DNA of 33,864 bases from Thermotogae bacterium (GTDB lineage: Bacteria; Hydrothermota; Hydrothermia; LBFQ01): assembly GCA_013154295.1 (NCBI GenBank), contig JAADCS010000001.1, positions 1 through 33,864 of the forward strand, read 5' to 3'. Position numbers and translations under genes: made by a program. The number at the start of each line of letters is the position of its first letter. The stretch's first letter is position 1. The notes under the pieces are model-generated. The model did no database searches. It saw only the letters and a list, made by a program, of their open reading frames with translations, and was not told the origin of the DNA. Below are positions 1,052-33,116 of the stretch, in pieces.

Positions 1052-1057
1052 TATAAT
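1052..1057 (+). promoter_or_regulatory. -10 box TATAAT of the SDR-like gene
   Basis: TATAAT ends 9 nt before the ATG at 1067, with T immediately before the ATG. The TTG at 1049 used in the ORF track lies on this box and is not a credible start. No clear -35 element is seen. Confidence 0.75.
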
Positions 1058-1066
1058 ACCTTTCCT

Positions 1067-2857
1067 ATGCCGGTATATGACTTTAGGCGCTTCATGATAG
1101 TCGGGGGCACAGGTTTGGTAGGTAGAGCCATCCTTAAAAAGGTCCTACCCGTGAGCCGTCGCCTCATAGTTCTTGGCCTCCGTAAGAAAGAAGTAGAGGA
1201 AACCCTAACCCTTTTCTCTGGAAAGGTTAAAGAAGAAACTCACCCAGTCTTGGGCTCGTATCTACGCAGCGGCAAAATAAGTGGATTTTGGGGTGATATA
1301 TTCCTAAGTTTGAAGCTAAATTCGGAGTTGAAGGGGAAGGTTGAAGAGAGAAAGAAAGCAGGAGAAAAGGATATAGATCTGTTGAAGCTCATGAAGGAGC
1401 TTCTGGAGAGGGATGAAAGGTTTCGCCTGGAAGCCATAGAGGACCTGTTGGGCCTTCTAAGAGGGCGAAAAAGAGGAAGAACCAACTATCTTAGGGTACT
1501 TTTGAAAAACCTTAAACCCGATGTGGTGGTGGATACCGTAAACACAGCCACGGCCATCGCATACAGAGATATTTTCAAAAACGTAGCCGATATATACAAA
1601 CTTCTGAAAGAGGATGCAAAATCGGAGGCTTATAAGGATTATGTAACGAACCTTCTTCTCTCCCTCAACATCCCCATACTTTTGAACCACGCCATAAACC
1701 TTTACGAGGGTCTTAAAGAAGCCGGAAGCCGAATTTATCTAAAAGTCGGCACTACCGGAACCGGTGGCATGGGTTGGAACATTCCTTACACCCATGGAGA
1801 GGATAAACCTTCCAAAAAGCTTTTGGACAAATCCGCCATAGCCGGAGCTTCAACCATGCTCTTTGTACTCATGAACAGAGACGATTCTCCAGTGGTCGTT
1901 AAAGAGATAAAACCAGGTGCTATGATAGGGTGGAAAAAGATAAGCAAGGGCACCATCATCAAACGTGGTGCGGAGATTATCCTGAAGGAACCGGTTGCCG
2001 TTTCACTTGCCATGGGAACAATAGAAAAGAAAACCACACCCGAAACAGGAAAGGTTCTGAAGACGGCTTACATAGATACCGGCGAAAACGGCTTCTTTTC
2101 CCTGGAGGAATTCAGAGCCATAACTTCTCTATCCCAAATGGAAATGATCACACCAGAGGATATAGCCGAGGTCGTTTTCCTGGAACTAAAAGGCAAGAGT
2201 ACGGGCAAAGACGTAGTAGGGGTCGTGGAAAGCGCTATATTAGGCCCCTCCTATAGAGGAGGCTTCATGCGAGACGGAGCTATCAAACTACTTGAAAAAT
2301 ACGAGAAGGAATCTCCCATGCCGAGTGTGGCCTTTGAGATATTGGGGCCTCCGCGTTTATCCAAGCTACTCTTCGAGGCCCATATCCTGAAGGAAACTTT
2401 CAAGACCTTGACTGCCCTGTCAGAGGCCAAACCAGAAGTCATATCCAAGACTATGTGGGACTACCTAAAAGAAAATCCGGATATGATGAGTTACATAACT
2501 TCCATAGGTATAGGTGTTCTCTCTCCCTCCCGGCGTCTTTACTACACCGAGGAATTAAAAGTTCCAAACCTTCCTGTAAATGATTTCTCGGCTGAAGATG
2601 TGGAGGAGTGGGCCCACAAGGGGTGGGTGGATACGAGAGTTGAGAATGCTCGGCGCTGGAAGTACAGAGCCATGATGTATCTGGAAGAGCTAACACGCAA
2701 GTATAGAGAATTGAAAAAGCTGAATGCCAGTTCTGCCCACGATCGTATAGGCCTACAACCTTTGAACCTGCGACCAAAATACGAGATAGTACCCGGTGAG
2801 ATAGTGCGCTGGATCTTCATCCACGAGGACAAGGGTCGCCGGACTAGACCCTACTGA
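1067..2857 (+). CDS. Large NAD(P)-dependent SDR/epimerase-like protein, 596 aa
   Basis: The N-terminus MIVGGTGLVGRAILKKV (from about residue 9) is a classic Rossmann GxxGxxG NAD(P)-binding motif of extended short-chain dehydrogenases. The protein is nearly twice the usual length. A charged, probably helical insertion (about residues 80-140, many Lys/Glu) follows the first strands. A conserved-looking block KVGTTGTGGMGWNIPYTHGE (about 225-245) sits where the substrate loop would be. The C-terminal third is mostly helical. I recognise the overall type, long uncharacterised SDR homologues with a TGTGGMG block, but not a specific reaction. The start at ATG 1067 rests on the -10 box 9 nt upstream. 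It is followed after 24 nt by a small outer-membrane protein gene with its own promoter. No signal peptide, so cytoplasmic. Confidence 0.7.
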   Translation: MPVYDFRRFMIVGGTGLVGRAILKKVLPVSRRLIVLGLRKKEVEETLTLFSGKVKEETHPVLGSYLRSGKISGFWGDIFLSLKLNSELKGKVEERKKAGEKDIDLLKLMKELLERDERFRLEAIEDLLGLLRGRKRGRTNYLRVLLKNLKPDVVVDTVNTATAIAYRDIFKNVADIYKLLKEDAKSEAYKDYVTNLLLSLNIPILLNHAINLYEGLKEAGSRIYLKVGTTGTGGMGWNIPYTHGEDKPSKKLLDKSAIAGASTMLFVLMNRDDSPVVVKEIKPGAMIGWKKISKGTIIKRGAEIILKEPVAVSLAMGTIEKKTTPETGKVLKTAYIDTGENGFFSLEEFRAITSLSQMEMITPEDIAEVVFLELKGKSTGKDVVGVVESAILGPSYRGGFMRDGAIKLLEKYEKESPMPSVAFEILGPPRLSKLLFEAHILKETFKTLTALSEAKPEVISKTMWDYLKENPDMMSYITSIGIGVLSPSRRLYYTEELKVPNLPVNDFSAEDVEEWAHKGWVDTRVENARRWKYRAMMYLEELTRKYRELKKLNASSAHDRIGLQPLNLRPKYEIVPGEIVRWIFIHEDKGRRTRPY

Positions 2858-2866
2858 ATCCTCCCT

Positions 2867-2872
2867 TAGAAT
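2867..2872 (+). promoter_or_regulatory. -10 box TAGAAT of the outer-membrane protein gene
   Basis: TAGAAT ends 9 nt before ATG 2882. Its TAG is also an in-frame stop upstream of that ATG, so translation cannot start further upstream in this frame. Confidence 0.7.
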
Positions 2873-2881
2873 AATCGGGAT

Positions 2882-3490
2882 ATGTTACTATTGGTGTTCA
2901 GCCAGTACGATTGGGAAGCGGACGAATACTACTACGAAGAGATCCGCAGAAAGGGTAAGTATGTTCTAGCAGCTGCAGGATACGGCATCTTTCTCTCCGG
3001 CGATAAACCCCAGGCTGCATTCGGGTACCTAGGCATACGTACCACACGTCTTGAAGATCCAAGAGCATACTTTACCTTCCTAGGAGGTGGAGGTTACTCC
3101 TTCACCCATGACCTCTTCTACGGCCAGGGGGGCGTTCTATACGAGAGAAGAACCCAGAGGTTTGGGGGACGTGTTGCCTTTCACTTGGGTGTCGGGATAC
3201 TTGCGAGTTATTATTCCTGGGGTACCGGTTCCTCTCCCTTGGCTGACAGCGGAGTCTCCAACACCGAGGCTATAATGTTTGATTTCCCCATTAGGGCAGC
3301 CGTTAGTTTACGTTTTGGGGCCTTTGAGTTCGTTCCAGAGCTTCAAGCGGTTCCATCCGTGAGTACGAACTTTCATAAGTTTTTCGCTCTGCGAGGCGTC
3401 CTCTATGTGATGTACGGTCATGAATCCGAATCCGAATTCTTTGAGGCGAAGCGAAAGAAAAAGGAGATGCGATACAAAAAGCTGAAGTGA
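2882..3490 (+). CDS. Putative outer-membrane beta-barrel protein, 202 aa
   Basis: No family is recognised. The N-terminus MLLLVFSQ is a very short hydrophobic stretch, possibly a minimal export signal. After it come alternating hydrophobic/polar segments rich in Gly, Tyr and Phe (FGYLGIRTTRLED, FTFLGGGGYSFTHDLFYGQ, AFHLGVGILASYYSWG, IRAAVSLRFGAFEFVPELQ) typical of short transmembrane beta strands. The tail is strongly basic (EAKRKKKEMRYKKLK), which is odd for a barrel that normally ends on an aromatic residue. The start is fixed by an in-frame TAG at 2867 with no other start between. It overlaps the next gene by GTGA, suggesting coupled translation. The barrel assignment is inference from composition. 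Confidence 0.6.
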   Translation: MLLLVFSQYDWEADEYYYEEIRRKGKYVLAAAGYGIFLSGDKPQAAFGYLGIRTTRLEDPRAYFTFLGGGGYSFTHDLFYGQGGVLYERRTQRFGGRVAFHLGVGILASYYSWGTGSSPLADSGVSNTEAIMFDFPIRAAVSLRFGAFEFVPELQAVPSVSTNFHKFFALRGVLYVMYGHESESEFFEAKRKKKEMRYKKLK

Positions 3491-4278
3491 GCCTACCGGA
3501 GAACTTTATAACGGTACTCCCTCCACCTTCGTCCTGGAAAGTGGAAGAGGTAGATAACTACTTAAAATGGGCTTTCAAACTCAGAGAAAAAGTTAAAGGT
3601 GCCTTCCTAATACCGGAAGTTTTACCCCATGCAGGTTACGGTGAAAGACCCATACCTTTCCAAGAAAAGATACCACTTTTGGAATTCGCCTCTTTACTCG
3701 GAAAGGGTGGGAAAGTGTTTGTAAGCCGCTACTTTTCTACGATACAAAGGGAAGAAGCGGCACGTTGGTTGGATGACGCTGGATCTTCCGTTGACGGAGT
3801 GTTGGTTGTGGGAAAGACCCCTGGAAGCACCCGCGCCTTCGGAATGGACGTTTTAGAGGCCATAACCTTAGCTAAACGATACTTTGAAGATGTGGGAGCG
3901 ATACTCATAGCCGGGAGACCTGACGAAACTGTTAGAGTTTGCAGAAAGATTGAAACTGGGGCCACTTTTTTCGTTTCACAGATCACTTTTGATCCTCTCC
4001 CCTTGGAAGTTTTGCTCTCGGCCTTAGAGAAGACTTGCCCGTCTATTACTGTATATCCGAGCGTGGCCCCTATAGTAGGGAAAAGGGAAGTTGAACTTTT
4101 GGAATGGATGGGAGTGGCTGTACCTGATCCTATCCCTTCTGTAGGTAAGCTGATAGGGCGTCTTCTCAAGCTTCCTTTGGTCGGCGGTATGAACTATGAG
4201 CATATACTTCTTGGCAACTTACGAAAACTCGCTTACATGGATATACCACCGTATAATACACTTCATGATCTCGGTTGA
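3487..4278 (+). CDS. Methylenetetrahydrofolate reductase-like (MetF-family) protein, 263 aa
   Basis: The second half matches the MTHFR TIM barrel pattern: AGRPDETVRVCRKIETGATFF then VSQITFDP (compare KxxAGAdFxxTQxFFD), followed by ITVYPSVAPIVGKREVELLE and a GVAVPDP loop. The N-terminal FITVLPP aligns with the SFEFFPP motif of MetF, but the catalytic Glu (Glu28 in E. coli) appears to be Thr. At 263 aa it is shorter than the usual ~290-300. It may be a true reductase with a rearranged active site, or a MetF-fold protein acting on another folate or C1 carrier. The GTG start overlaps the upstream stop (GTGA). The downstream ABC ATPase starts inside its last 14 nt and has its own -10 box within this gene. 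Cytoplasmic, presumably FAD-binding. Confidence 0.6.
   Translation: MSLPENFITVLPPPSSWKVEEVDNYLKWAFKLREKVKGAFLIPEVLPHAGYGERPIPFQEKIPLLEFASLLGKGGKVFVSRYFSTIQREEAARWLDDAGSSVDGVLVVGKTPGSTRAFGMDVLEAITLAKRYFEDVGAILIAGRPDETVRVCRKIETGATFFVSQITFDPLPLEVLLSALEKTCPSITVYPSVAPIVGKREVELLEWMGVAVPDPIPSVGKLIGRLLKLPLVGGMNYEHILLGNLRKLAYMDIPPYNTLHDLG
4252..4257 (+). promoter_or_regulatory. -10 box TATAAT of the ABC ATPase gene, inside the MetF-like CDS
   Basis: TATAAT lies within the last codons of the MetF-like gene and ends 7 nt before ATG 4265. It implies an internal promoter giving a leaderless ABC-permease transcript. Confidence 0.65.
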
Positions 4279-4927
4279 GGGTCTTTATAAAGCGTACGGT
4301 GGAAGGATGATCTTACGGAATCTGGACCTAAAGGTGGAAGAGGGGGAACGGGTGTTTCTTTTGGCTCCCAATGGGTTTGGGAAGAGTACTTTATTAAAGA
4401 TTTTAGCAAATATTGAACCTTTCCAGAGGGGCAAGGTAAGCGTAGCCAGCTTCAACGTCCCATCTTCCCGAAGCCGAGCTGCGCTCTCATATATCAGCGA
4501 GAACGACAACCTCTATGAGGGATTCTCCCTTGGATATTTGGCTGAATTTTCCGCCCACTTTTGGCCCTTTGAGTGGAAGTTATTTGAAAGTTTTCTAAAT
4601 GTGATAGGCGTGGATACTAGAGCCAAATACGGTCAGCTCTCTAAGGGTCAAAGGATGGTGGTGAGGGTAGCGCTGGGTATAGCGAAAGATGTTCCCGTAT
4701 ACCTGATAGACGAACCTTTGTCCTCCCTAGACTTCGTCCTTCGCGAGAAAGTGGTAGAGATGATAAAGGAAAGGTCCGATAGAACTATGCTCTTCACCTC
4801 CCATCAGATAGACGAGCTGGAAAGTCTGGCTACTCGCTTCGTTTTTCTCAAGGACGGCCAAATAGCGCTTAGTACGGAGAACCGTCATAATCTGAAGGAC
4901 CGATACAGGGAGGTCTTTGGTGGATAG
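4265..4927 (+). CDS. ABC transporter ATP-binding protein, 220 aa
   Basis: A single nucleotide-binding domain: Walker A APNGFGKST (residues 33-41), Q-loop region near SYISENDN, signature LSKGQ, Walker B VYLIDEP, D-loop SSLD, and the H-loop TSHQ. The first residue of Walker A is Ala instead of the common Gly. It lacks the C-terminal OB-fold/TOBE domain of MalK-type sugar ATPases and most resembles short Ecs/Ccm/antibiotic-type ATPases. The ORF track start at 4196 adds 23 residues without sense; ATG 4265, 7 nt after a TATAAT box, gives MISVEGLYKAYGG, the usual ABC N-terminus. Its stop overlaps the start of the MalG-type permease, so the two are co-expressed although their subfamilies do not match. 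Confidence 0.85.
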   Translation: MISVEGLYKAYGGRMILRNLDLKVEEGERVFLLAPNGFGKSTLLKILANIEPFQRGKVSVASFNVPSSRSRAALSYISENDNLYEGFSLGYLAEFSAHFWPFEWKLFESFLNVIGVDTRAKYGQLSKGQRMVVRVALGIAKDVPVYLIDEPLSSLDFVLREKVVEMIKERSDRTMLFTSHQIDELESLATRFVFLKDGQIALSTENRHNLKDRYREVFGG

Positions 4928-5741: not shown

Positions 5742-5959
5742 AGGTGAAGGTTCGTGTTAAACCTGCCTCCAAAGTTGCTAAAGTGGTGGAAGAAGAAGGA
5801 ACTTTGGTGGTATTTTTAAAATCTCCTCCGGTTGAAGGCAGAGCAAACAGGGAGTTGGTCGAGGTTTTAGCGAAACACTTCGGGGTTACAAAGGATTCGG
5901 TGCGGATACTTCGTGGTAAGAAGTCAAGGACGAAGGTAATCGAGATAGTAAATCGCTAA
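5738..5959 (+). CDS. YggU/UPF0235 (DUF167) family protein, 73 aa
   Basis: A small basic protein matching the YggU family: VKVRVKPASKVAKVV, then VFLKSPPVEGRANRELVEVLAKHF, GVTKDSVRILRGKKSRTKVIEI. The SPPVxGxAN and LxxGxxSRxKxI blocks are the family signature. Its role is not established; homologues are often encoded near YggT or proline-synthesis genes, not here. The TTG start overlaps the permease stop (ATTGA), with GAGGAGG upstream as Shine-Dalgarno. It is the last gene of the cluster beginning at 2882. Confidence 0.88.
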   Translation: MKVKVRVKPASKVAKVVEEEGTLVVFLKSPPVEGRANRELVEVLAKHFGVTKDSVRILRGKKSRTKVIEIVNR

Positions 5960-6315
5960 GGTATTTCTTCAGCCACCAGGGATTATACCGTTTTACATTG
6001 GAGATGGGAGTACCCACATCACTATCATTCCGGTGAGTGGTTTCACTTGGAGGCTGTTTAGCCTCACAGTGAAACCAGAAGGGGTCCGTGCTTTTGATTT
6101 CCGGCAAAGGTTTGTAATCTTAAAAGGTAAAAGAAATCAAGGATCTATCTATGCAGGGAAGTATAATCCCTGTCACATTTGGGGACCTAAATTTTCCACA
6201 CCCTATCCCCTGCAACACCTTTTTGACCTTTCATTCGCCAGGATTGGGAGATAAAACTTTCCATGCCATAACCCCATATACTCCTTCAACCGCTTGCTTT
6301 GGTAGCATACCCCTT
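5960..6315. other. Intergenic gap with hairpins and copy 1 of a dispersed repeat
   Basis: No gene is accepted here; ORF 6033-6254 and the minus ORF 5886-6107 look like chance frames. The gap holds the repeat hairpin at 6038-6076 and a smaller perfect dyad at 6154-6172 (CAGGGA, 7-nt loop, TCCCTG). No intrinsic terminator with a U-tract was seen after the YggU gene. Confidence 0.5.
6038..6076. repeat. Dispersed intergenic hairpin repeat, copy 1
   Basis: The core begins GGTTTCACTTGGAGGC, has the loop region TGTTTA, and closes with GCCTCACAGTGAAACC. Both arms pair over about 17 bp with two mismatches. A second, partly degraded copy lies at 33284-33317. Both copies are followed downstream by a GGCAAAG(G/A)TTTG motif (6103-6114 and 33327-33338). 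The GTTTC...GAAAC span is 36 nt, the size of a CRISPR repeat, but there is no array. Confidence 0.75.
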
Positions 6316-6321
6316 TAAAAT
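6316..6321 (+). promoter_or_regulatory. -10 box TAAAAT of apgM
   Basis: TAAAAT ends 7 nt before ATG 6329, with C immediately before the ATG. The spacer is CCAATCC, with no Shine-Dalgarno sequence. Confidence 0.7.
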
Positions 6322-6328
6322 CCAATCC

Positions 6329-8942: not shown

Positions 8943-8948
8943 ATTATA
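8943..8948 (-). promoter_or_regulatory. -10 box TATAAT of atpB
   Basis: On the minus strand TATAAT is followed by AGCCGCCT and ATG (8-nt gap). No Shine-Dalgarno sequence is possible in this spacer. Confidence 0.75.
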
Positions 8949-8978
8949 CCCCCGGCACCCCATCGTTTTCCCAACCCT

Positions 8979-10079: not shown

Positions 10080-10086
10080 AGATGGG

Positions 10087-10092
10087 ATTCTA
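10087..10092 (-). promoter_or_regulatory. -10 box TAGAAT of pepP
   Basis: TAGAAT CCCATCT ATG on the minus strand (7-nt gap, T before ATG). Confidence 0.7.
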
Positions 10093-10094
10093 CT

Positions 10095-10111
10095 CCCGAC
10101 ACCTTGTCGGG
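10095..10111. promoter_or_regulatory. Perfect dyad between divergent pepP and PCuAC promoters
   Basis: CCCGACA-CCT-TGTCGGG, a perfect 7-bp inverted repeat centred between the two -10 boxes. Its position overlaps the upstream promoter region of both genes, so it could be an operator controlling one or both. The binding factor is unknown; a metal-responsive regulator would fit the copper chaperone, but this is inference. Confidence 0.5.
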
Positions 10112-10113
10112 TG

Positions 10114-10119
10114 TAAAAT
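10114..10119 (+). promoter_or_regulatory. -10 box TAAAAT of the PCuAC gene
   Basis: TAAAAT ATCGTCCT ATG, 8-nt gap. An in-frame TTG at 10104, upstream of the box, would give a longer signal peptide and is the competing start. Confidence 0.6.
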
Positions 10120-10127
10120 ATCGTCCT

Positions 10128-10511
10128 ATGTTGTTCATTCTAAGCTTGACCGTTGTAGATGCGTGGGCACGCCCTGGAATGGAGGGTGGGAACTCCGCTG
10201 TCTACTTTACCGTTAAGAACGAGTCCGATAAACCCGACACCCTATATGGGGCTTCCGTTGTGGAGGATGTGGCCGAGAAGGTGGAACTACACGAGACCTA
10301 CGATGCCGGCGACGGAAAGCTGGGCATGAGGCACGTCGACTTCGTAGTCGTTCCTGCCAAGGGAGAGTTACACTTCAAGCCCGGTGGCTATCACGTAATG
10401 CTTATCGGTCTAAAGAGAACTCTGCGTGACGGTGACGAAATAACTCTAGTCCTCAAGTTCAAAAGGGCAGGGGAGGTCGTTATAAAGAACGTAAAGGTGA
10501 AAGTAGAATAA
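10128..10511 (+). CDS. PCuAC-type periplasmic copper chaperone, 127 aa
   Basis: Delivers Cu(I) in the periplasm, classically to the CuA site of cytochrome oxidase. The cupredoxin-like domain carries H55, M67, H89 and M91 (from ATG 10128). The spacing M-x21-HxM is exactly that of the PCuAC copper-binding motif, and H55-x11-M67 is near the canonical H-x10-M. The N-terminus MLFILSLTVVDAWA is a short signal-peptide-like stretch; an alternative TTG start at 10104 would add a basic n-region (SGVKYRP). It shares a divergent promoter region and a dyad with pepP. mutS2 follows 7 nt after its stop. No cytochrome oxidase or SenC gene lies nearby, so its client protein is unknown. Confidence 0.87.
   Translation: MLFILSLTVVDAWARPGMEGGNSAVYFTVKNESDKPDTLYGASVVEDVAEKVELHETYDAGDGKLGMRHVDFVVVPAKGELHFKPGGYHVMLIGLKRTLRDGDEITLVLKFKRAGEVVIKNVKVKVE
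10504..10509 (+). promoter_or_regulatory. -10-like TAGAAT before mutS2, overlapping the PCuAC stop
   Basis: TAGAAT ends 9 nt before ATG 10519, and its last T begins the TAA stop of the PCuAC gene. A GGAGG sequence also lies 2-4 nt before the ATG, too close for ideal use, so mutS2 may be either leaderless or read through from upstream. Confidence 0.45.
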
Positions 10512-12279: not shown

Positions 12280-12302
12280 CCCACACGGCTGTTCTACCGC
12301 CG

Positions 12303-12308
12303 TATAAT
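12303..12308 (+). promoter_or_regulatory. -10 box TATAAT of tRNA-Asn (and murI)
   Basis: TATAAT ends 13 nt before the mature tRNA 5' end, leaving room for a transcription start and a short leader. This independent non-coding gene supports TANAAT as the real -10 hexamer of this genome. Confidence 0.75.
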
Positions 12309-12321
12309 AACTTCCTCAAAC

Positions 12322-12394
12322 GGGTCCGTAGCTCAATAGGCAGAGCACCCGGCTGTTAACCGGGGGGTTGCAGGTTCGAGTCCTGCCGGGCCCG
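12322..12394 (+). tRNA. tRNA-Asn (anticodon GTT)
   Basis: A complete cloverleaf: acceptor GGGTCCG/CGGGCCC (one G-U pair), D-arm GCTC...GAGC, anticodon stem CCCGG/CCGGG with loop CTGTTAA (anticodon GTT), variable loop GGGTT, T-arm GCAGG TTCGAGT CCTGC, and discriminator G. The CCA end is not encoded. The murI start codon follows 6 nt after the tRNA 3' end, so the two are almost certainly one transcript. Confidence 0.95.
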
Positions 12395-12400
12395 TTTATT

Positions 12401-15633: not shown

Positions 15634-15639
15634 ATTTTA
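15634..15639 (-). promoter_or_regulatory. -10 box TAAAAT of fumC
   Basis: TAAAAT CCCCTCTC ATG on the minus strand, 8-nt gap. It decides the fumC start at 15625, because the longer ORF would translate through the promoter. Confidence 0.75.
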
Positions 15640-15849
15640 CCCATGAAATACTAAGTAGCATGATCCTAACCATAAGAATCTTTTCTCATAACACTTCCCT
15701 TCAAGTGGTTGATCTATTATAGCGACAGAAATTGGGCATCGCGTTGAATACCCCGCAGGATGCATGTAAAAATCCGACACTTTTTAAATCTATAGTAAAA
15801 ATTTCACCCATAGTCGCAAATATCGACAAGAACATTCCAAGAACTACCT
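15640..15849. other. Intergenic gap between divergent fumC and queD
   Basis: About 210 bp of AT-rich sequence. A 57-codon open frame exists on the minus strand but shows no family resemblance and no promoter at the right spacing. Nothing else was recognised. Confidence 0.4.
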
Positions 15850-15855
15850 TAAAAT
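15850..15855 (+). promoter_or_regulatory. -10 box TAAAAT of queD
   Basis: TAAAAT ATCTTCCTT ATG, 9-nt gap, T before ATG. Confidence 0.7.
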
Positions 15856-20788: not shown

Positions 20789-23216
20789 CAGTGACTATTT
20801 TACCGCTGAAAGATTCGTTTATGGGTAAATCGTAAAAGAGGCCCTTAAAGAGTATTAAACCGGCGGGAACATCGGGGCTTACGATGGGTGTAACCTCGTA
20901 TTCCTTACCCTTGATCTTCAATAGGATCTCTTTCTCTCCTACGATGCCGAGACGCTCCGCATCCTCCGGCGATACGAACACACCTTTCTCAACTACAAAG
21001 GATTTATGAATGGGGTTACGGAAAGCATAGTAAGAACTCTTGTAGAGATCTCTAACGTGCAGGAGTAACAGATCGGCATCGTTAACCCCCTTCTCCTTGA
21101 CCGGATCGTAACCCTCCCGGAAGAAACTGTACTTTGCAGTGGGGTAGCGATACACCCGCTTCAGTTTAGCGATGGTGGGAACGAAGTCGGGATAGGGTCT
21201 CTCCTCGTAAGGTAGCTCGTAAGGATCGAACTCAAGCTCACGATAAGGGAGAACGTTCCTGCGAAGTTCTAGGAACACATCGCGGGTGCTCTTCCAATCG
21301 GCTTTACCGCCGAGCCTCCTTATAAGTTCCTTAAAGATCCACCAGGCGGGTCTGCTCCCTGCGTAGGGCCAGAGGGCATCCTTACCATACTGGACACGCC
21401 CTTCCAGATTGGTTCTGGTACCCTCCTCCTCATAGGGAACGGTTATAGGGAGGATGGCCGAAGCGTATTCCGAGGAGGGATCCCAGAAGGAGGTAAGTAA
21501 CACCACGAACGGTGTATTTTCCAAGGCCTTCGTGACCAGCTCTCTATCGTAGTACTCGTAAAGAGGTTCCACCTCCCATAGTATGAGGGCATCTATCTTA
21601 CCCTCGGCAGCCTCCTTCAGTATGTCTCCAGTCGTGGAACCGTCCGGTAGAGGTAAGAAGCCTATATCTACAAAACCTTGGCCGTTGGGGGCGGTTCTAA
21701 GAAGGAGAAAACGGAACCGTTCATCCATGGCCCACATATAGGCTAAGTTGGATTGGGCTTCCGCCGGTAGGTCGTCAGAGAATATGAGGAGGGGAGATTT
21801 GGCCAACTTCAGAGCTTCCATCACCTCTCGGAGATAGTCGGGTCCTTCCCCTTTAACCAGGTGGTAGGAAATCTCCGTCTCGGAACCTGGCTCCATCTTA
21901 ATCCACCTCGCCCAACCATCTCTAACGTACCTCTCTCTGTAAGGGTTTAGAACGAAGAGTTTAGCTCTCCTACGAGCAGCTCTCACCAACCTTATGCCTA
22001 TACCGGGAACGGTCTCCCTGACATCTCCAAAGATAACTATCACATCAGACCTGTCTATATCAGCTATCTTAGCAGTGGAAGCGGAATAACCCACGACCTT
22101 CTTTATGGGATCTTCCCTGTAGGCCATATGGGGTGGTCTGAAATCCAGATCGCCCCCCAAAATCTCTTGCATTAGCTTATGGCCAGCGTAGGCGGCTTCG
22201 TTGGTACCACGACCGCCAGAGAGCATGGCCACTCTTTTGGCATCGCTCAAATTGTGGGCTACCCAATCCAGCGCCACCTTCCAGTTCAACTTCACCCACT
22301 TACCATCCTTTCCTCTCAGATGTGGATAATCCACACGTTTTTTATGATCGTACACGTACTGATGAGAAAACCTATCACGATCACTTATCCAGAATTCGTT
22401 GACATCAGGATTCTCGCGGCCGTTTATCCTGACTATCCTGTGGACATCCTCTCGCCTACCTCCCATCACCATGCGACCCCTACTGTAGGGTTTGCGGCTT
22501 ATAACCTCTACCAGAACGTTGGCTCCCAAAGAGTCCTCTGGACTTATGGCGGGAACCCTCTCTATGTTCCAGGGTCTCGTGTAGTATTTGTAGTCGGTCC
22601 CGTTTATAGCACCCACGGGACACACCTCTATGAGATTACCGGAGAACTCATTATTAAGAAAACGATCCTTCTCCGGACCGAAGACCGTATACCACCCCCT
22701 ATCAAACATGGACCAATCCTTGCCACCACCTATGATCCAGTAGAAGGTTGAACACTTGAAACATTGGATACACCTGTGGGGTTCAAGGTCGAAGTAAGGA
22801 CCGGCATCGCGTTTGGGATAAAGTCTCTTGGGGAAGGTGTACTTGCTCGTGGTAGGTCCGAACAGGTAGGTTATATCCTGAAGATCACACTCTCCGCCCT
22901 TATCACATACGGGACAATCAAGGGGATGGTTCGTCAAAAGAAGAGCTACTACGGACCTTTGGGTCTCTTTAACGGTCTCGGTTCTTGTCCAAACCTTCAT
23001 ACCGTTTTCGGCTTTTGTGGCGCAGGCAGGTTTCAACCCCTTACGACCACGCCTGTCTTCCACCTCCACCAGGCACACCCTGCATCCTGCCCATACAGGT
23101 AACTTAGGGTGATAACAAAAAACGGGTATCTTTTCGCCGTTCCTCCATGCAATCTCAAGGATCGTTTCCCCCTCGTTGAAAACTACCTCTTTATCGTTTA
23201 GAAGGATTTTGGCCAT
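20751..23216 (-). CDS. nuoG: NADH-quinone oxidoreductase subunit G (NuoG), 821 aa
   Basis: Iron-sulfur subunit of respiratory complex I, peripheral arm. The [2Fe-2S] ligands are C34, C45, C48 and C65. N5 uses H97, C101, C104 and C110 (HPLDCPVCDKGGEC). N4 uses C149, C152, C155 and C199 (CIQCFKC and CPVG). The extra N7 cluster of E. coli and Thermus is absent: the position after TRPWNIERVP has ISPEDSLGAN instead of cysteines. A molybdopterin-oxidoreductase-fold domain follows (about 265-720) and a C-terminal barrel. It starts at ATG, 7 nt after a TATAAT box. No nuoE/nuoF/nuoI or membrane subunits adjoin it, so it is a solitary locus. A NuoG-like subunit of another NAD-dependent enzyme is possible. 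Confidence 0.9.
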   Translation of the reverse strand: MAKILLNDKEVVFNEGETILEIAWRNGEKIPVFCYHPKLPVWAGCRVCLVEVEDRRGRKGLKPACATKAENGMKVWTRTETVKETQRSVVALLLTNHPLDCPVCDKGGECDLQDITYLFGPTTSKYTFPKRLYPKRDAGPYFDLEPHRCIQCFKCSTFYWIIGGGKDWSMFDRGWYTVFGPEKDRFLNNEFSGNLIEVCPVGAINGTDYKYYTRPWNIERVPAISPEDSLGANVLVEVISRKPYSRGRMVMGGRREDVHRIVRINGRENPDVNEFWISDRDRFSHQYVYDHKKRVDYPHLRGKDGKWVKLNWKVALDWVAHNLSDAKRVAMLSGGRGTNEAAYAGHKLMQEILGGDLDFRPPHMAYREDPIKKVVGYSASTAKIADIDRSDVIVIFGDVRETVPGIGIRLVRAARRRAKLFVLNPYRERYVRDGWARWIKMEPGSETEISYHLVKGEGPDYLREVMEALKLAKSPLLIFSDDLPAEAQSNLAYMWAMDERFRFLLLRTAPNGQGFVDIGFLPLPDGSTTGDILKEAAEGKIDALILWEVEPLYEYYDRELVTKALENTPFVVLLTSFWDPSSEYASAILPITVPYEEEGTRTNLEGRVQYGKDALWPYAGSRPAWWIFKELIRRLGGKADWKSTRDVFLELRRNVLPYRELEFDPYELPYEERPYPDFVPTIAKLKRVYRYPTAKYSFFREGYDPVKEKGVNDADLLLLHVRDLYKSSYYAFRNPIHKSFVVEKGVFVSPEDAERLGIVGEKEILLKIKGKEYEVTPIVSPDVPAGLILFKGLFYDLPINESFSGKIVTVDSLSSRSTVQS
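20797..20802 (-). promoter_or_regulatory. -10 box TAAAAT for the TPR gene, inside nuoG
   Basis: TAAAAT AGTCACTG TTG on the minus strand, 8-nt gap, located in the last codons of nuoG. It gives the TPR-wzc pair its own leaderless transcript. Confidence 0.55.
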
Positions 23217-23223: not shown

Positions 23224-23229
23224 ATTATA
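23224..23229 (-). promoter_or_regulatory. -10 box TATAAT of nuoG
   Basis: TATAAT ACCCTCC ATG on the minus strand, 7-nt gap. A short perfect dyad CTACG-GCG-CGTAG (23238-23250) sits 8 bp upstream and could be an operator. Confidence 0.72.
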
Positions 23230-23284
23230 CAGGAGGGCTACGGCGCGTAGGTCTCAAGTAGAAACACCCCTTCCAAACCCACCT

Positions 23285-23290
23285 TAGAAT
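23285..23290 (+). promoter_or_regulatory. -10 box TAGAAT of the flavodoxin-like gene
   Basis: TAGAAT CGGCTCC GTG, 7-nt gap; supports GTG 23298 as the start. Confidence 0.68.
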
Positions 23291-23297: not shown

Positions 23298-23930
23298 GTG
23301 GCTGTTAAGGTCTTGGGGGTAAATGGCTCGGCCCGAACCGACGGTTGGACGGCAGCATATCTGCGGCATAGCCTTGAGTTTGCCTCCCGTAGTGGAGCAG
23401 AAATCTCTCTGGTGCATCTATCCATGCTCAACCTACACTTTTGCACAGGTAGCTATAGCGAAAACCCGAACCTTTGTAACCTCGAAAACTGTACTGGAGA
23501 CCGGCTTGGAGATGCCTTTACTTCTCTGGTTTGGAAGATGTTGGAGGCCGACGCCATACTCTTCGCCACGCCGGTATATTGGTATTCACCTTCATCCCTA
23601 TTGAAGGTCCTGGTGGAGCGGATGACTTCTCTGGAGAATCTTGGAGCTTTCATGCTACGGGGTAAGGTGGGAGGAGTTTTGGTGGTGGGCGAGGAGGAAG
23701 GAGCCTCACAGGTGGCCTCCAACCTGATGTTAACTTTGAGCCAAATGGGTTTCCTGTTTCCACCGGTCGGAGCAGCCTATCTCATCCGTAGATGGGATGA
23801 TGAACGCAAAAGTGAAGCTTACGACGATGCCGCTGCCCTTGGGGCCAACGTAGTTAGGCTAGCTGGCATGCTGGATACTTCTTGGGACTGGATTCATTCT
23901 TGGCGCACTCTAATCCGGAAGCGTCCTTAG
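23298..23930 (+). CDS. NAD(P)H-dependent FMN reductase / flavodoxin-fold protein, 210 aa
   Basis: N-terminal KVLGVNGSARTDGWTAAYLR is the FMN-phosphate loop of the NADPH-dependent FMN reductase/WrbA-like superfamily (GSxRxxGxT). ADAILFATPVYWYSPSSLLK is the second flavin-contacting loop, followed by LVERMTSL and GGVLVVGEEEGASQVA. A cysteine-containing insert (LHFCTGSYSENPNLCNLENC, residues 47-66) is where iron-sulfur-flavoproteins bind a cluster, with the CxxxxxxxxxxCxxxxC spacing relaxed from the usual CxxCxxC form; cluster binding is doubtful. Likely a cytoplasmic flavoprotein reductase of unknown substrate. Divergent from nuoG, 81 bp away. GTG start, 7 nt after its -10 box. Its stop TAG is part of the next gene's -10 box. 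Confidence 0.85.
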   Translation: MAVKVLGVNGSARTDGWTAAYLRHSLEFASRSGAEISLVHLSMLNLHFCTGSYSENPNLCNLENCTGDRLGDAFTSLVWKMLEADAILFATPVYWYSPSSLLKVLVERMTSLENLGAFMLRGKVGGVLVVGEEEGASQVASNLMLTLSQMGFLFPPVGAAYLIRRWDDERKSEAYDDAAALGANVVRLAGMLDTSWDWIHSWRTLIRKRP

Positions 23931-23933
23931 AAT
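23928..23933 (+). promoter_or_regulatory. -10 box TAGAAT overlapping the stop codon of the flavodoxin-like gene
   Basis: TAGAAT AGGATCCT ATG, 8-nt gap. The TAG is the stop codon of the preceding gene. Confidence 0.65.
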
Positions 23934-26147: not shown

Positions 26148-26174
26148 GAGCGTATCACTTAAACCGATACGACT

Positions 26175-26180
26175 ATTTTA
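26175..26180 (-). promoter_or_regulatory. -10-like TAAAAT upstream of the hypothetical gene
   Basis: TAAAAT AGTCGT ATC on the minus strand; the nearest in-frame conventional start (TTG 26147) is 27 nt away. It would give a short leader or a non-standard start. Confidence 0.4.
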
Positions 26181-26188
26181 CAGGGGAT

Positions 26189-27520: not shown

Positions 27521-27526
27521 ATTCTA
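27521..27526 (-). promoter_or_regulatory. -10 box TAGAAT of the DprE1-like gene, overlapping the CocE stop
   Basis: TAGAAT CCCGTC TTG on the minus strand, 6-nt gap; TAG is the CocE-gene stop codon. Confidence 0.65.
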
Positions 27527-29302
27527 ACGGAGAATCACCCTTCTGACCTCATCTTTAACCTTTAAGAAATAAACGCCTTTGGGTAAGTGCGGTGAACAAC
27601 CTCGTCCCGACCATCTCATCCTGCCGGAGGCATCGTATAGGACTCCCCTTTCATTCAGGCATAGAGTGCTACCTTTGAGTTCAAAAGCTATCCGCACATC
27701 TTTCCTCTCGAGAACCTCGGTTGTAGGAAGTATGGGTATACTCAAGTAAGACGGATATAGGGCAGTGTGATACACTCGGTTGGTGGCGATCAACTTGAAC
27801 GTGTCATTTCTCTGGAACGGGGCACCAGTGTTTGGATTGGCCTCAAACCTTGGGTAGCTTGCCGAAGATATTATTACCATAAGGCGATGACCAGGCATGA
27901 TAGCCCACGCTGTACTCCAGACCTTTACTTCAAGGGAGTCTATCTCACCGGGGGTCAAAAATACTTCCCTGTCAAATCCGTATCTGAATCGTGCCTTGGT
28001 TATACCATCGGAGATGAGTATGGCTCTGCCGTCTGGATATACATCAGCCAGCCGTACAATGAAATCGGTATCGTAACGATCGCTTGAAACGTAGAGCTTC
28101 GCCTTCACGCTTCCTATGATCACCAGAGTATCCGTTAGAGGGGGTGTCTGGAAGATTAGAACGTCGGAACGACTTAAAAGTGGTCTCTGGTCCTTGGGAC
28201 CGTCTCCACCAGGCAGGTCCATCTCGTTACCCCCTATAGAAGGGGTGGGGTCATCAGGATCATACACGTAGGTAGAGAAACTGTCCGCGGATGGTGGGGG
28301 ACTCAACGATAGAGTACCATCCCCGCGCAGGTACCAGTTTCGGTAATATACGCCACGGGGAGGAAAAGTGTCAGCTTCCACCCAGCGATTCAATCCTATT
28401 ACGTAAAATCTGACTGGTGGCCAATCGTCTGCGCCGTTACTTTCCCCCCGAAGCCAATAGTCGTACCAGGTACCCATCATATTAACCAACTCGGTCACGG
28501 ATAGGCCTGCCTCCGACGGAAAGCTCATATCTCCTTGGTCCGTTTGACCGAACCCCAGATGGGTCCAGGGTCCTATTATCAGTTTCTGGTTTCCCCGTGC
28601 CAGTGGTGCCCCTTCAAACTGGAGACGGTTGAAGGCCTCAATCTGGCTTTCCAAAAAGAGATCGAACCATCCAGCGAAGTGCAACATGGGAACATTCACG
28701 CCGGCAATACGCGTGTTCAGATCTAGAAGCTGCCAGGTGCTATCGTAGAGTGGATGGTTTGCCACCGAATCGATCAAAAAAGGTGTTCCCAAACCCCCAA
28801 GCCACCCTTCAACCAGGTTCTTCCTAAACTCCCCCCCTTGAAAGGCGGCATAATGATACATACTATGTGCACCTACCAAGGGAACCGCACATTTATAAGC
28901 CGGGTGGTAGGTTCCCGACAGTAAATATTGGGTTATCCCCATAGCCGAAAACCATGCCCCGCACACCTTACCGGAGGACCAGGGTTGGGATATTATCCAG
29001 CTGACGGCGTCATACCCATCCTGAAGCGATCCCCAAGCATCTGTTTTAAACACTTGGGGATCCCCCTCACTTCCCTGAAAACCTCTTACACTCTGTATAA
29101 CCAAAGCGTACCCCTTCACGTCCGTGATGTAAGGGATAAAAGCCGAAAGTCCAACGTCCGTACGGCCGTAGGGCGTCCTTATTAAAATGGTATGAAGTTG
29201 CCCACTGTAAAAGGTGGGTTTGTAAATATCTGTGGCCAATCTAACGCTGTCGCGCATAGGAACCATCACGAAATCGTGTGAGTAGGCTATGATGATCCAC
29301 AT
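27524..29302 (-). CDS. Secreted CocE/NonD-type alpha/beta hydrolase with T9SS-like C-terminal tail, 592 aa
   Basis: An X-Pro dipeptidyl-peptidase (S15)/cocaine-esterase-type hydrolase, acting on acyl or prolyl bonds. From ATG 29302: N-terminal MWIIIAYS (short export-like), domain start MVPMRDSVRLATDIYKP, oxyanion Tyr in RTPYGR, catalytic S119 (AWFSAMGITQ), D214 (FAGWFDLF) and H248 (IGPWTHLGF). A jelly-roll C-terminal domain follows (about 410-545). The last ~45 residues (VLYDASGRMRWSGRG, LPKGVYFLKVKDEVRR) look like a Bacteroidetes-style C-terminal sorting/FlgD-like domain. The ORF track start at 29494 would overlap the GT-C gene by 193 nt; ATG 29302 has the -10 box at 7 nt and a TAATG junction with the upstream stop. 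Confidence 0.87.
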   Translation of the reverse strand: MWIIIAYSHDFVMVPMRDSVRLATDIYKPTFYSGQLHTILIRTPYGRTDVGLSAFIPYITDVKGYALVIQSVRGFQGSEGDPQVFKTDAWGSLQDGYDAVSWIISQPWSSGKVCGAWFSAMGITQYLLSGTYHPAYKCAVPLVGAHSMYHYAAFQGGEFRKNLVEGWLGGLGTPFLIDSVANHPLYDSTWQLLDLNTRIAGVNVPMLHFAGWFDLFLESQIEAFNRLQFEGAPLARGNQKLIIGPWTHLGFGQTDQGDMSFPSEAGLSVTELVNMMGTWYDYWLRGESNGADDWPPVRFYVIGLNRWVEADTFPPRGVYYRNWYLRGDGTLSLSPPPSADSFSTYVYDPDDPTPSIGGNEMDLPGGDGPKDQRPLLSRSDVLIFQTPPLTDTLVIIGSVKAKLYVSSDRYDTDFIVRLADVYPDGRAILISDGITKARFRYGFDREVFLTPGEIDSLEVKVWSTAWAIMPGHRLMVIISSASYPRFEANPNTGAPFQRNDTFKLIATNRVYHTALYPSYLSIPILPTTEVLERKDVRIAFELKGSTLCLNERGVLYDASGRMRWSGRGCSPHLPKGVYFLKVKDEVRRVILR

Positions 29303-30357
29303 TACCAGGATTTTATGCCCGTAGAACGTTTGAGGATGGCTAAAATCTCCACCGGCAGTCGTAGGCGAGGGGATCCTGGTAAAGCCACACCAAGGATATA
29401 GAAAAGGCCCACGGCTGTTAAGCCACGATCTCCCAAAATCCTCCGGTAAATGTACAGTAGGTAGGGATAAAATAGAAGATAAGCCAATGGCCAAAGAGGA
29501 CCGAATATCTTTAGATAGCCGCGTGGAATAGCCTTAAAGAGGGTAAAGACCACACCTTTTAACCACACTCCTATAGTTTCCATAGGATGGGATAAAATCC
29601 AAGGAAAAACAACCTTAGTCATGTTAGAAATCCATTCTCCCATCGTGGGAATTTCGTTGTAAGCATTTAAAAGAGATGAAACGTCCGTAAATTTACTCAT
29701 CAGATATACAGTCAAGGTGGTGGTAAAAACACCGGAGAATATAGGTGCACCACCTAGAACCGCGTTCGTTGTCATCCAAAGACCCACGGGGAGAATAAAG
29801 AGGAGAGCATTGAGCAAAATGAACCTCCAGGATCTCCTTCGCAATCCCTCCAAAAGGAGCAGGGGGGGGAAGAGCAACAGGGTAGCTTGGCGCAGAAGGG
29901 CCAGAATACCCCAAAGTATTCCTTGAAACCTACCTTTATAAAGGAGAACGAATACCAGCAAGGGAACGTAAAGACCTTCCGTAAGATTTTGGTTGGTGAA
30001 TACACTGACTGTAGGAGATAAAAACAGGAGCATCGCCTTCTCCCTCTCTTCGCGCATCACCAAGGTCATAACGGCCAAAATTAAAAGGAGGTTTTGAAGG
30101 AGTAACGTACCTTTGGATCCCAAAATAGACAGAACTACCGGGTAGATGGGCATCCTTATAACATCGTGCTTTAGGGGTGGATGGGGATCGCTAGAAAACA
30201 CACTATAAGTCCGCAAATTATGGGCTATACGCATGTAATCCTGTGCGTCACTCGTAAACAAGGGATAATCACCCGTGAAGGCCACCACGGTCACATACGC
30301 TTTGAAAACGATGAGAGAGAGGATGTATGAAAGAAACAGAAACCTCCTCAGAGACAT
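29302..30357 (-). CDS. GT-C-like multi-spanning membrane protein, 351 aa
   Basis: About nine or ten hydrophobic segments. The first extracytoplasmic loop contains FTSDAQDYMRIAHNL and later RMPIYPVVLS, the pattern of GT-C glycosyltransferases (ArnT/PMT and DUF2029-like), where an acidic residue in loop 1 is catalytic and a polyprenyl-phosphate sugar is the donor. Other segments include LLLQNLLLILAVMTLV and WGILALLRQATLLLF. Probably transfers a sugar at the outer face of the inner membrane; the acceptor is unknown. The ORF track start (GTG 30402) adds 15 residues; ATG 30357 lies 8 nt after TAGAAT and begins MSLRRFLFLSYIL, a normal first helix. The stop TAA overlaps the CocE start (TAATG). Confidence 0.68.
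   Translation of the reverse strand: MSLRRFLFLSYILSLIVFKAYVTVVAFTGDYPLFTSDAQDYMRIAHNLRTYSVFSSDPHPPLKHDVIRMPIYPVVLSILGSKGTLLLQNLLLILAVMTLVMREEREKAMLLFLSPTVSVFTNQNLTEGLYVPLLVFVLLYKGRFQGILWGILALLRQATLLLFPPLLLLEGLRRRSWRFILLNALLFILPVGLWMTTNAVLGGAPIFSGVFTTTLTVYLMSKFTDVSSLLNAYNEIPTMGEWISNMTKVVFPWILSHPMETIGVWLKGVVFTLFKAIPRGYLKIFGPLWPLAYLLFYPYLLYIYRRILGDRGLTAVGLFYILGVALPGSPRLRLPVEILAILKRSTGIKSW
29310..29315 (-). promoter_or_regulatory. -10 box TAAAAT of the CocE gene, inside the GT-C gene
   Basis: TAAAAT CCTGGTA ATG on the minus strand, 7-nt gap, within the final codons of the upstream gene. Confidence 0.6.
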
Positions 30358-30365
30358 AAGGGCCA

Positions 30366-30371
30366 ATTCTA
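30366..30371 (-). promoter_or_regulatory. -10 box TAGAAT of the GT-C-like gene
   Basis: TAGAAT TGGCCCTT ATG on the minus strand, 8-nt gap; moves the start from 30402 to 30357. Confidence 0.68.
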
Positions 30372-30411
30372 AAGAGGTTTCAAGGTTTTCCCAATTATCC
30401 ACATTTCCCGC

Positions 30412-30429
30412 GTAGAATTTAAAATCTAC
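30412..30429. promoter_or_regulatory. comEC promoter (-10 TAAAAT 30420-30425) within an imperfect palindrome
   Basis: GTAGAATTTAAAATCTAC is an 18-bp palindrome with one mismatch per arm. It contains TAAAAT, which ends 10 nt before TTG 30436 of comEC. A repressor could bind here, but none is identified. Confidence 0.5.
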
Positions 30430-30435
30430 TATCCC

Positions 30436-31656
30436 TTGCTGATCTCCATAACCTTTTTGACAGGTCTTTTGGGAGCGGTTTGGTGGGGTTTCCTCTTTTT
30501 AATCCCTGTGTTTTTCTTTCTAAGTGGGAGAAGGAATGCCAGTATTTTGCTCGGTTTGATCGGAATCTTGGGATATGCTCGCATGTACTTTCTCCTGAAC
30601 GGAAGGGAGAACGTTAAAGGGGGATATGGATGGTACGTAGTTAGCATATTTGATAGAGGCCACGGTATGATATTGAAAGAGAAGCGCAAAAACGCTTGGG
30701 TGAAGGTGAAAGCCAAGAAAGTGGTCGTTCTCAACGGAGAAAGGGAGGCTTTTCCGGTTGATGAAGTTGTGGTTTTTGGCAGGTTACACTCCGATACCCT
30801 CACCGTTGAGGAAGCTATCTTTAAAAAGGGTATAAGGGCATTTTATCGTTGGATATCCGATAGATTGATAGTGGCCACACGATCTGGGGATCAGTTTCGG
30901 TTTGCCCTATCGGTTATAACCGGTGTCAGAAACGTTAGGTGGGATCTAAAGAGAGCCTTCTATGATACAGGAACGGGACACGTTCTGGCCATATCCGGAT
31001 TGCATGTGGGTATAATCTTCTTCGCGGTCTACTACCTTTTACGTCTTCTTAGCCCAGGGATTATAGCCCCCTTGCTGGCTACTCTGTTGGTTTGGCTCTA
31101 CGCTTGGGTCGTCGGTTTCATACCTTCGGTTGTGCGGGCTGCCCTCATGCTAACATTTTTCTCGGGAGGTATTTTATTGGCCAGACCCCTAAAACCTCTT
31201 AACGTCTTGGCTATTTCTTTGGCTTTTTCCCTATACCTAAAACCTCTCTGGCTGTTCTCCCCCTCTCTGTGGTTATCCTACTCGGCCATAACAGGCCTGA
31301 TCGTTCTTCGTGGCAGGTTAGGTGCCATTTTCGGTGCCGCAGCTTACTCCCTCCCTTTTGCTTTACACTACTTTGGCAAGTATGCTCTTCTTTATCTTCC
31401 TCTTAACCTGCTTGTGATTCCCCTTATGGGGCTCTTTATGTATTCTCAACTTCTGGCTCTTCTATTTCCCTATCCCTTCGCCTATTCTGCATCTCTATTT
31501 TATGACATCCTTGAGTGGGTGGTGGTTAAAGCAGCCTCCTTGAACTTTCCCTCGTTGAGATTGGAAATCGGGTGGGTTGGAGTTGGAGCCTACGTCTTCC
31601 TTCTCACGACGCTACTATTAGCGTTACGCTGCCTTCGAAAACCTACCATCTCTTGA
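30436..31656 (+). CDS. comEC: Minimal ComEC/Rec2-type competence membrane channel, 406 aa
   Basis: Inner-membrane channel for single-stranded DNA uptake. The Competence domain is clear: TGTGHVLAISGLHVGIIFFA (about 178-197, the family HLLAISGLHxG) and IPSVVRAALM. About ten hydrophobic helices follow. A short N-terminal soluble OB-like part (about 60-130) replaces the larger DUF4131 region. The C-terminal metallo-beta-lactamase-like domain of full ComEC (~750 aa) is absent; the frame ends soon after the last helix (LLLALRCLRK). Either the nuclease-like domain is a separate gene or it is not used. TTG start, 10 nt after a TAAAAT box. Overlaps the convergent propeller gene by 14 nt. Confidence 0.87.
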   Translation: MLISITFLTGLLGAVWWGFLFLIPVFFFLSGRRNASILLGLIGILGYARMYFLLNGRENVKGGYGWYVVSIFDRGHGMILKEKRKNAWVKVKAKKVVVLNGEREAFPVDEVVVFGRLHSDTLTVEEAIFKKGIRAFYRWISDRLIVATRSGDQFRFALSVITGVRNVRWDLKRAFYDTGTGHVLAISGLHVGIIFFAVYYLLRLLSPGIIAPLLATLLVWLYAWVVGFIPSVVRAALMLTFFSGGILLARPLKPLNVLAISLAFSLYLKPLWLFSPSLWLSYSAITGLIVLRGRLGAIFGAAAYSLPFALHYFGKYALLYLPLNLLVIPLMGLFMYSQLLALLFPYPFAYSASLFYDILEWVVVKAASLNFPSLRLEIGWVGVGAYVFLLTTLLLALRCLRKPTIS

Positions 31657-33100
31657 TAAATCTGCGCCAGCCCCTCTCGGTTCGTAGAAGGAGCAGACCC
31701 TTGGGTGCCTCTTCTAAGGAGTCGAACCTCCTTCCGTCAGCTGTATAGATCTCCAGAATCCTTTCATCCGTGGAACATCTACTCATCTCTCCAACGGCCA
31801 GATCGTTGTCATGGCCTACAGGAGTACAGAATTCAACCGTGTCGGCGGGGAGAGATTGGACCGTCAGGAATGCGGTACCTATGTTCGTGCTGGCCGTCCT
31901 ATCGCGAAACGTGGGAAGCGATGTGTTTAACGTGTAAGTCGGTGTAGAGAAAGAGGGGGAAACGGAGGAATACTGATCGGTGCAAACTGTGCCATCGCTC
32001 AAGAATTTAGTAATAAACCAGTCGGAGACCGTGGAGAATCCACTTAACTTGTAACTGTTACCGACCACCAGAAAGCCACCGTCGGGGGATCTATGAACGC
32101 TGTTGCCTGCATCTCCAAAGCTACTACCCCAGAAGATGCGCGCCCACACTGGATTCCCAGACGGATCCGTTTTTATTATTATGGCATCCTCAAAACCTAG
32201 TAGATCGTGGGAGTAGGAGAAAGTGAATCCCACGACCACACATCCGTCATCACTGGAGGAAGCCACACCGAAGGCCTGATCGTTGGAGGATCCGCCTATC
32301 TTCTTTATCCACAGCAAGTTTCCGAGTGAATCCACCCGCATAAGCAGTATATCGTAATCCCCATCTGCGTTGGTATATCCAGCGGCACAGTAGTCACCCG
32401 ATGGTGTCTGGGTTACCGAGAAGAGTCTATCCTCACTCCCTATATCAACCCTAAGGGACCAAAGAGGGTTGCCAGCATCGTCCGTACGTATCAGCAAAGC
32501 GTCGTAGTTGGAAGGGGGACCGACTCTACCTGCTAGGATGTACCTACCGTTGGCATCCACGCGTATTTCCCTCGCCATGGACGGATCGGTAAACTCCAGC
32601 GATACGGACCAGGTGAGGTTACCCAGATCATCCATTTTGAAGATCCATACCCCGTTCCCAAACGACACGGAATAGCCAGCTGCCAAGATTTGACCATCAT
32701 CATCCTGTACTACCCAGTAGGGATACTCGTTCATGGAGGTTCCCAGATACCGCGCCCAAATTAAGGAACCGCTTCCATTCACTAAAGTTACCAGGGCATC
32801 GTATCCACCGAAACCGGAGGAGGAAGACGTACGACCGACCAAAATGTATCCAGCGTCTATCTCGGTTATACCGTAAGCTCTATCCTCCGCTGGAGTACCC
32901 AAAGCATGACCAAAGGTCAAGTTTCCTAAGGAGTTGTACTTCACTATGCCAAAGTCTCCGTTGGAGCCGTAGCTTCCCCATATCCCACCAACCACGAATC
33001 CACCATCGGAAGCGTTGATACCCGCGTATCCCTCATCCGTATCTGAACCCCCGTAGCGGAACATGAACGAGACTGCCGATAGATTTAACAGGAACACCAT
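31643..33100 (-). CDS. Secreted beta-propeller-like repeat protein with T9SS-like C-terminal tail, 485 aa
   Basis: Six to seven ~50-residue repeats of the type DGGFVVGGIWGS...GDFGIVKYNSLGNLTF. Later repeats include DGQILAAGYSVSFGN, GRYILAGRVGPPSNYDALLI and DGCVVVGFTFSY, each with a GNPLW/GNLTW-type turn, as in delta-60/SBBP-like secreted propellers. The tail ERILEIYTADGRRFDS and PKGLLLLRTERGWRRF resembles a C-terminal sorting domain like that of the CocE protein. ATG 33100 gives MVFLLNLSAVSFMF; the longer start 33130 would give a better basic n-region (CRYKIRVIM) but overlaps the -10 box. Four cysteines near the C-terminus (about 395-450) may form disulfides. Presumably on the cell surface; binding partner unknown. 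Confidence 0.78.
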   Translation of the reverse strand: MVFLLNLSAVSFMFRYGGSDTDEGYAGINASDGGFVVGGIWGSYGSNGDFGIVKYNSLGNLTFGHALGTPAEDRAYGITEIDAGYILVGRTSSSSGFGGYDALVTLVNGSGSLIWARYLGTSMNEYPYWVVQDDDGQILAAGYSVSFGNGVWIFKMDDLGNLTWSVSLEFTDPSMAREIRVDANGRYILAGRVGPPSNYDALLIRTDDAGNPLWSLRVDIGSEDRLFSVTQTPSGDYCAAGYTNADGDYDILLMRVDSLGNLLWIKKIGGSSNDQAFGVASSSDDGCVVVGFTFSYSHDLLGFEDAIIIKTDPSGNPVWARIFWGSSFGDAGNSVHRSPDGGFLVVGNSYKLSGFSTVSDWFITKFLSDGTVCTDQYSSVSPSFSTPTYTLNTSLPTFRDRTASTNIGTAFLTVQSLPADTVEFCTPVGHDNDLAVGEMSRCSTDERILEIYTADGRRFDSLEEAPKGLLLLRTERGWRRFIKRW

Positions 33101-33110
33101 AATTACTCGT

Positions 33111-33116
33111 ATTTTA
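33111..33116 (-). promoter_or_regulatory. -10 box TAAAAT of the propeller gene
   Basis: TAAAAT ACGAGTAATT ATG on the minus strand, 10-nt gap (the longest with ComEC). Confidence 0.5.

Follow-up and report, generated by a model that had tools for sequence, protein, structure and literature searches.

The 33,864-nt stretch of DNA analysed here (the window) corresponds to contig C165 in a 169-contig, 1.97 Mb metagenome-assembled genome (MAG) of an uncultured hot-spring/vent bacterium belonging to the Caldipriscus family (f1) of candidate phylum WOR-3; the atpB product of the window shares 98–88% identity with WOR-3 MAGs and with Ca. Caldipriscus T1.2 (L024). The hexamers that precede its genes very probably mark the housekeeping promoter of this lineage, in which TA(N)AAT would serve as the -10 element, no -35 element is used, and the mRNAs of first genes start at or near the initiation codon, with Shine-Dalgarno (SD) sequences serving operon-internal genes. 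Under such a mechanism the start point at the first gene of a transcription unit would lie on, or within ~0–3 nt of, the initiation codon, its mRNA would be leaderless or nearly so and be translated without SD, and operon-internal and rare leadered genes would be translated through ordinary pairing of their SD with the 16S anti-SD, which is intact. For about four in ten genes, the messages appear to begin at the start codon itself.

A first-pass annotation of the window had listed 19 hexamers of the form TA(T/A/G)AAT lying 6–10 nt upstream of a start codon (the gap being counted in nt from the end of the hexamer to the start codon or RNA 5′ end). All 19 are present at the gaps claimed, such that 19 of the 30 gene starts in the window carry the box against 0.13 expected (P ~5e-38), and the pyrimidine said to precede the start codon is found, as T or C, in 16 of the 19. 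Seventeen of these examples can be accepted, with scores of 11.5–17.7 for the extended box, and all 17 have a C six bases upstream of the hexamer (C-18), a feature that the annotation did not use; the hexamers before mutS2 and comEC look like chance.

Genome-wide counts refer to 1.09 Mb of the 1.97 Mb MAG, and the positional scan that had been proposed gives a sharp peak. When TA(T/A/G)AAT is used as the anchor, without any gene calling, ATGs that open reading frames (ORFs) of at least 80 codons number 39, 89, 107, 85 and 26 at gaps 6–10, against 3–14 at nearly all other gaps. The shifted or related words AATATA, TTATAA, TATATT and TATACT give no comparable ATG peak, and that of ATAATA arises because this word overlaps TATAATA. 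The refined matrix finds a box at 438 of 1025 genes, as opposed to 28 for the reversed matrix and 6–17 for permuted ones, and strong sites fall 5–11 nt upstream of a gene start in 399/672 cases compared with 10/207 for the reversed matrix. The result is a Pribnow-like signal that peaks sharply ~12 bp upstream of the start codon, the pattern by which TA-led leaderless genes are recognised.

The box extends well beyond the hexamer. The full element is C(-18)NNC(-15)NNTANAAT(A), that is, C(-18) N N C(-15) C/T G/T TANAAT A: among 345 aligned sites, C occupies the position six bases upstream of the hexamer in 89%, the position three bases upstream (-15) is C in 63% and G in 25%, G or T stands directly before the hexamer and A after it. 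C-18 is present at 88.7% of the hexamers that precede ATG-opened ORFs versus 29.8% of the remaining hexamers (P 4e-94). No -35 hexamer (TTGACA ~17 bp upstream of the -10) was detected, since no position between -50 and -10 (counted from the hexamer) holds more than 0.07 bit of information, and the T-15 G-14 of extended -10 (TGn) promoters is likewise not seen, with T in 8% at -15 and G in ~20% at -14. The C-18/C-15 extension, together with its restriction to one family, is the main novelty of this analysis and was absent from the first-pass annotation.

The placement of the start point is consistent with leaderless messages, in that the base preceding ATG is T or C in 71–82% of cases at gaps 6–9, and the first pyrimidine-purine (YR) step 6–10 nt past the hexamer falls on the A of ATG at 199/320 sites and mostly 1–3 nt upstream otherwise. 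One might instead suppose that the box is a promoter followed by ordinary leaders, with the true starts further downstream and the box-adjacent ATG mis-called, since the start calls are computational and some genes could have a YR step beside their ATG by chance. This is very unlikely, because ATG at gaps 6–10 exceeds background more than 20 times, only canonical start codons are enriched (ATG 297 against 13 expected, GTG 49 against 18, TTG 41 against 25, and no others, with no peak for ATC, ATT or CTG after boxes), Pfam domains begin 3–4 residues after such starts (FMN_red, PTPS), and SD is depleted.

This depletion is part of a division of labour that follows operon position. The box precedes 81% of divergent genes, 43–55% of same-strand genes separated by a gap and 6% of overlapping genes, so that leaderless expression can be called the default, as had been claimed, for the first genes of transcription units and not for all genes (43%). 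SD sequences are found in 5–8% of genes in most box classes versus 55–61% of operon-internal non-box genes; overall, they are depleted in box genes (7% versus a background of 22–23%) and enriched in non-box genes (47% versus 25–29%). Within the window, the permease and YggU genes, which had been named as operon-internal SD users, indeed have GGAGG and AGGAGG. The anti-SD CACCTCCTTTCT is kept in both 16S sequences of the bin, which rules out anti-SD loss and means that the two initiation modes coexist, as the annotation had suggested. A gene controlled by a cobalamin riboswitch, and thus leadered by definition, has AAAGGAGG upstream of its ATG. This locus (L103:9003-9249, minus strand) runs from tRNA-Met directly into the riboswitch and then the gene, with a single promoter apparently serving both tRNA and riboswitch. 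No other riboswitch turned up in ~0.66 Mb scanned, as would be expected if most genes lack leaders.

That the element is a promoter and not a ribosome signal follows from its presence at untranslated genes. It stands at 25 of 26 tRNA genes; in 24 of these the hexamer ends 6–16 nt upstream of the mature 5′ end, and in the other the distance is 32 nt. It also stands at the gene for RNase P RNA (rnpB, C37:9061-9475), where the gap to the 5′ end is 6; because this RNA is not translated, it can calibrate the start point, and its gap falls in the range of 6–10 nt seen for ATG, which lends indirect support to RNA 5′ ends at the start codon. The tRNA-Asn of the window (gene 12321-12395), previously offered as a calibration, is a real one, with its extended box at 12297..12308 on the plus strand (hexamer at 12303, score 17.4, C-18 present), although the hexamer ends 12 nt, and not 13, before the 5′ end given by ARAGORN. 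An RNA-level translation signal, in the form of a non-SD ribosome-binding element within a normal 5′ untranslated region, would account for the fixed distance to start codons and the replacement of SD, but it can scarcely be credited when the same element marks the tRNA and RNase P RNA genes and contains a consensus -10. In this genome (G000), the placement of the tRNA promoters predicts pre-tRNA 5′ leaders of only ~0–9 nt; loss of RNase P, which such short leaders might lead one to suspect, is ruled out by the presence of rnpB.

As far as sequence can carry it, the leaderless reading is well supported, and several points have to be set against it. The MAG has a stated contamination of 6% and was read over 1.09 Mb, and gene starts come from a simple caller. 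We infer where the RNA 5′ ends lie, that leaderless translation is of the 70S type and that RNA polymerase reads C-18/C-15, possibly through its beta′ zipper. A leader of 1–3 nt is indistinguishable from none under the first-YR rule, so the messages are accurately described as leaderless or as carrying a leader of a few nt. In regions 2.4 and 3.0 of the sigma factor RpoD, no change specific to f1 was found that could account for C-18/C-15. As to contamination, the bin holds two different 16S genes (C46, C97, C129), one of them divided between contigs, which agrees with the stated value.

Judged by copy number, the extended element is confined to the Caldipriscus family among the lineages searched. 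CNNCNKTATAATA occurs in 75–228 copies, against 1–19 for a reversed control, in 8/8 f1 genomes; in almost all other WOR-3 families its count is close to that of the control, and it shows no excess in 16 genomes of other lineages. Another f1 genus (G084) yields the same logo (C-18 81%, C-15 81%), and at atpB the f1 box and C-18 are conserved in five relatives (L021–L025) despite diverged flanks. The sister family f2 (G055, L229–L248) appears leaderless too, with C-15 and TAAAATTT and without C-18, and the tRNA genes of G055 carry CTTTAAAATTT, a different box from that of f1. Two further atpB genes (L027 and L028) have the f2 box, and a third (L026) has an SD-like GGGAG in its place. Within the class, several further families likewise show an excess of TATAAT-N9-ATG. 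The cultured WOR-3 isolate sy37 (PMC12285271), whose 16S is 84% identical to that of Caldipriscus T1.2, probably belongs to another family. One record labelled “Thermotogota bacterium L_MaxBin.116” (L022) carries a Caldipriscus-family atpB and the promoter signature, and its label is probably wrong.

In Actinobacteria and Deinococcus-Thermus, leaderless genes preceded at a few bp by a TANNNT box are an established feature (PMC3160421, PMC12340547, PMC4633059). The Deinococcus-Thermus case (PMC12340547; Zheng 2011, PMC3160421) is similar in that the -10 lies a few bp from ORFs, mostly without a -35, and in that genes with ribosome-binding sites coexist, about one third of genes being of the TANNNT kind; however, TANNNT alone is reported there, whereas here a strong C-18/C-15 extension accompanies TANAAT in an unrelated phylum. 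Mycobacteria also combine a large leaderless share with SD genes (PMC4633059), but that share was mapped experimentally and ours is derived from DNA. The Z-element, associated with the beta′ zipper (PMC4496709), overlaps position -18, but it is reported at -24 to -18 with doubtful sequence specificity, in contrast to the single strong C-18 seen here. Extended -10 (TGn) promoters resemble the present ones in working without a -35 and in conserving bases shortly before the -10, although these are C-15 and C-18 here and not T-15 G-14. We know of no C-18 element in mycobacteria. A search of open-licence papers returned nothing on leaderless expression in WOR-3; leaderless genes of this kind are known, and the WOR-3 lineage and the C-18/C-15 variant appear to be new.

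As for what reads C-18/C-15, it is possible, if somewhat doubtful, that a separate general DNA-binding factor does so and not RNA polymerase. Basal factors of this type, for example CarD, exist in bacteria, and sigma regions 2.4 and 3.0 match those of families without the element; on the other hand, the search for a small CarD returned only Mfd and weak partial matches in ~690-aa proteins, and the element lies within the footprint of core RNA polymerase and occurs at nearly all promoters, including those of tRNA genes. More tentatively still, the bases may be recognised, in the manner of a Z-element, by a beta′ zipper altered in this lineage. A 13-residue insertion directly before the zipper occurs throughout the order (f1 and f2; L211, L206) and is absent from the other aligned families, and R47K (plus L49 and Y57) is found in f1 only; the alignment to solved beta′ chains begins right after the insertion. 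Contact of E. coli beta′ R47 with the -17/-18 backbone has been reported (PMC10216364), as has contact of the zipper with bases -24 to -18 (PMC4496709); residue numbering follows E. coli sigma and beta′. Yet the insertion is also present in f2, which has no C-18, and the f1 sigma has further private changes: those restricted to f1 RpoD lie mostly elsewhere (F419Y, Y421W, I390E), I443V being conservative. The match between the beta′ changes and C-18 is a correlation only. We would put forward no more than speculatively the broader proposal that the Caldipriscus family follows a core-promoter code of its own: at almost every housekeeping promoter RNA polymerase itself, through a modified beta′ zipper, would recognise C-18/C-15 and not a -35, while the sister family has the different -10 dialect CTTTAAAATTT, the basal code having changed recently within one order.

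The leaderless reading would add a candidate phylum to the lineages in which leaderless expression is close to the default, with a basal promoter signature that has conserved C-18/C-15 and no -35 and that differs between sister families; the evolution of core promoter recognition thereby becomes testable through simple polymerase swaps. In practical terms, the box allows start codons to be called in these genomes.

Along the plus strand of the window, the extended promoter box CACTTGTATAAT at 1046..1057, with C at -18, precedes ATG 1067 of a 596-aa “SDR” protein (gap 9, score 11.5), and further boxes serve an outer-membrane-like protein (2861..2872, gap 9, ATG 2882, score 16.1), an ABC ATPase (Pfam PF00005; 4246..4257, within the upstream gene, gap 7, ATG 4265, score 16.5), apgM (Pfam; 6310..6321, gap 7, ATG 6329, score 15.1) and queD (15844..15855, gap 9, ATG 15865, score 15.0), whose Pfam PTPS domain runs from residue 4. 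The box at 23279..23290 (gap 7, score 13.2) precedes GTG 23298 of an FMN_red/flavodoxin-like protein, a start supported by the FMN_red domain beginning at residue 3, and that at 23922..23933 (gap 8, score 14.5) precedes ATG 23942 of a 61-aa protein. On the minus strand lie the boxes of atpB (8943..8954, gap 8, ATG 8934, score 13.5), fumC (15634..15645, gap 8, ATG 15625, score 12.7), a TPR protein (20797..20808, gap 8, TTG 20788, score 17.7), nuoG (Pfam; 23224..23235, gap 7, ATG 23216, score 13.3), a DprE1-like FAD-binding protein (27521..27532, gap 6, TTG 27514, score 14.7), a CocE/S15 peptidase (29310..29321, gap 7, ATG 29302, score 13.4), a GT-C-like protein with no Pfam match (30366..30377, gap 8, ATG 30357, score 11.9) and a propeller protein (33111..33122, gap 10, ATG 33100, score 14.8).

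The two hexamers set aside as chance are both on the plus strand and both lack C-18/C-15. TAGAAT at 10504..10509 (score 2.6) is directly followed by AGGAGG, an SD start, in line with the earlier listing of mutS2 as the SD exception. TAAAAT at 30420..30425 (score 4.5) lies 10 nt before the comEC TTG; the extended box at 30407..30418 (plus strand, hexamer TAGAAT at 30413, score 14.4), from which TTG 30436 is at gap 17, is more likely to be the promoter that comEC really uses, in which case the gene has a short leader or starts at another codon. A further strong element at 26163-26186 on the minus strand (score 16.3, box at 26180) has no ATG, GTG or TTG at gaps 6–10, and at gap 6 stands an in-frame ATC of the downstream ORF.

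The boxes of pepP (10087..10098, minus strand, gap 7, ATG 10079, score 12.1) and of the PCuAC copper chaperone (Pfam PF04314; 10108..10119, plus strand, gap 8, ATG 10128, score 15.7) form divergent promoters packed into 48 bp (10080-10127). A common inverted repeat, CCCGACA..TGTCGGG, overlaps the C-18/C-15 parts of both and is possibly an operator.
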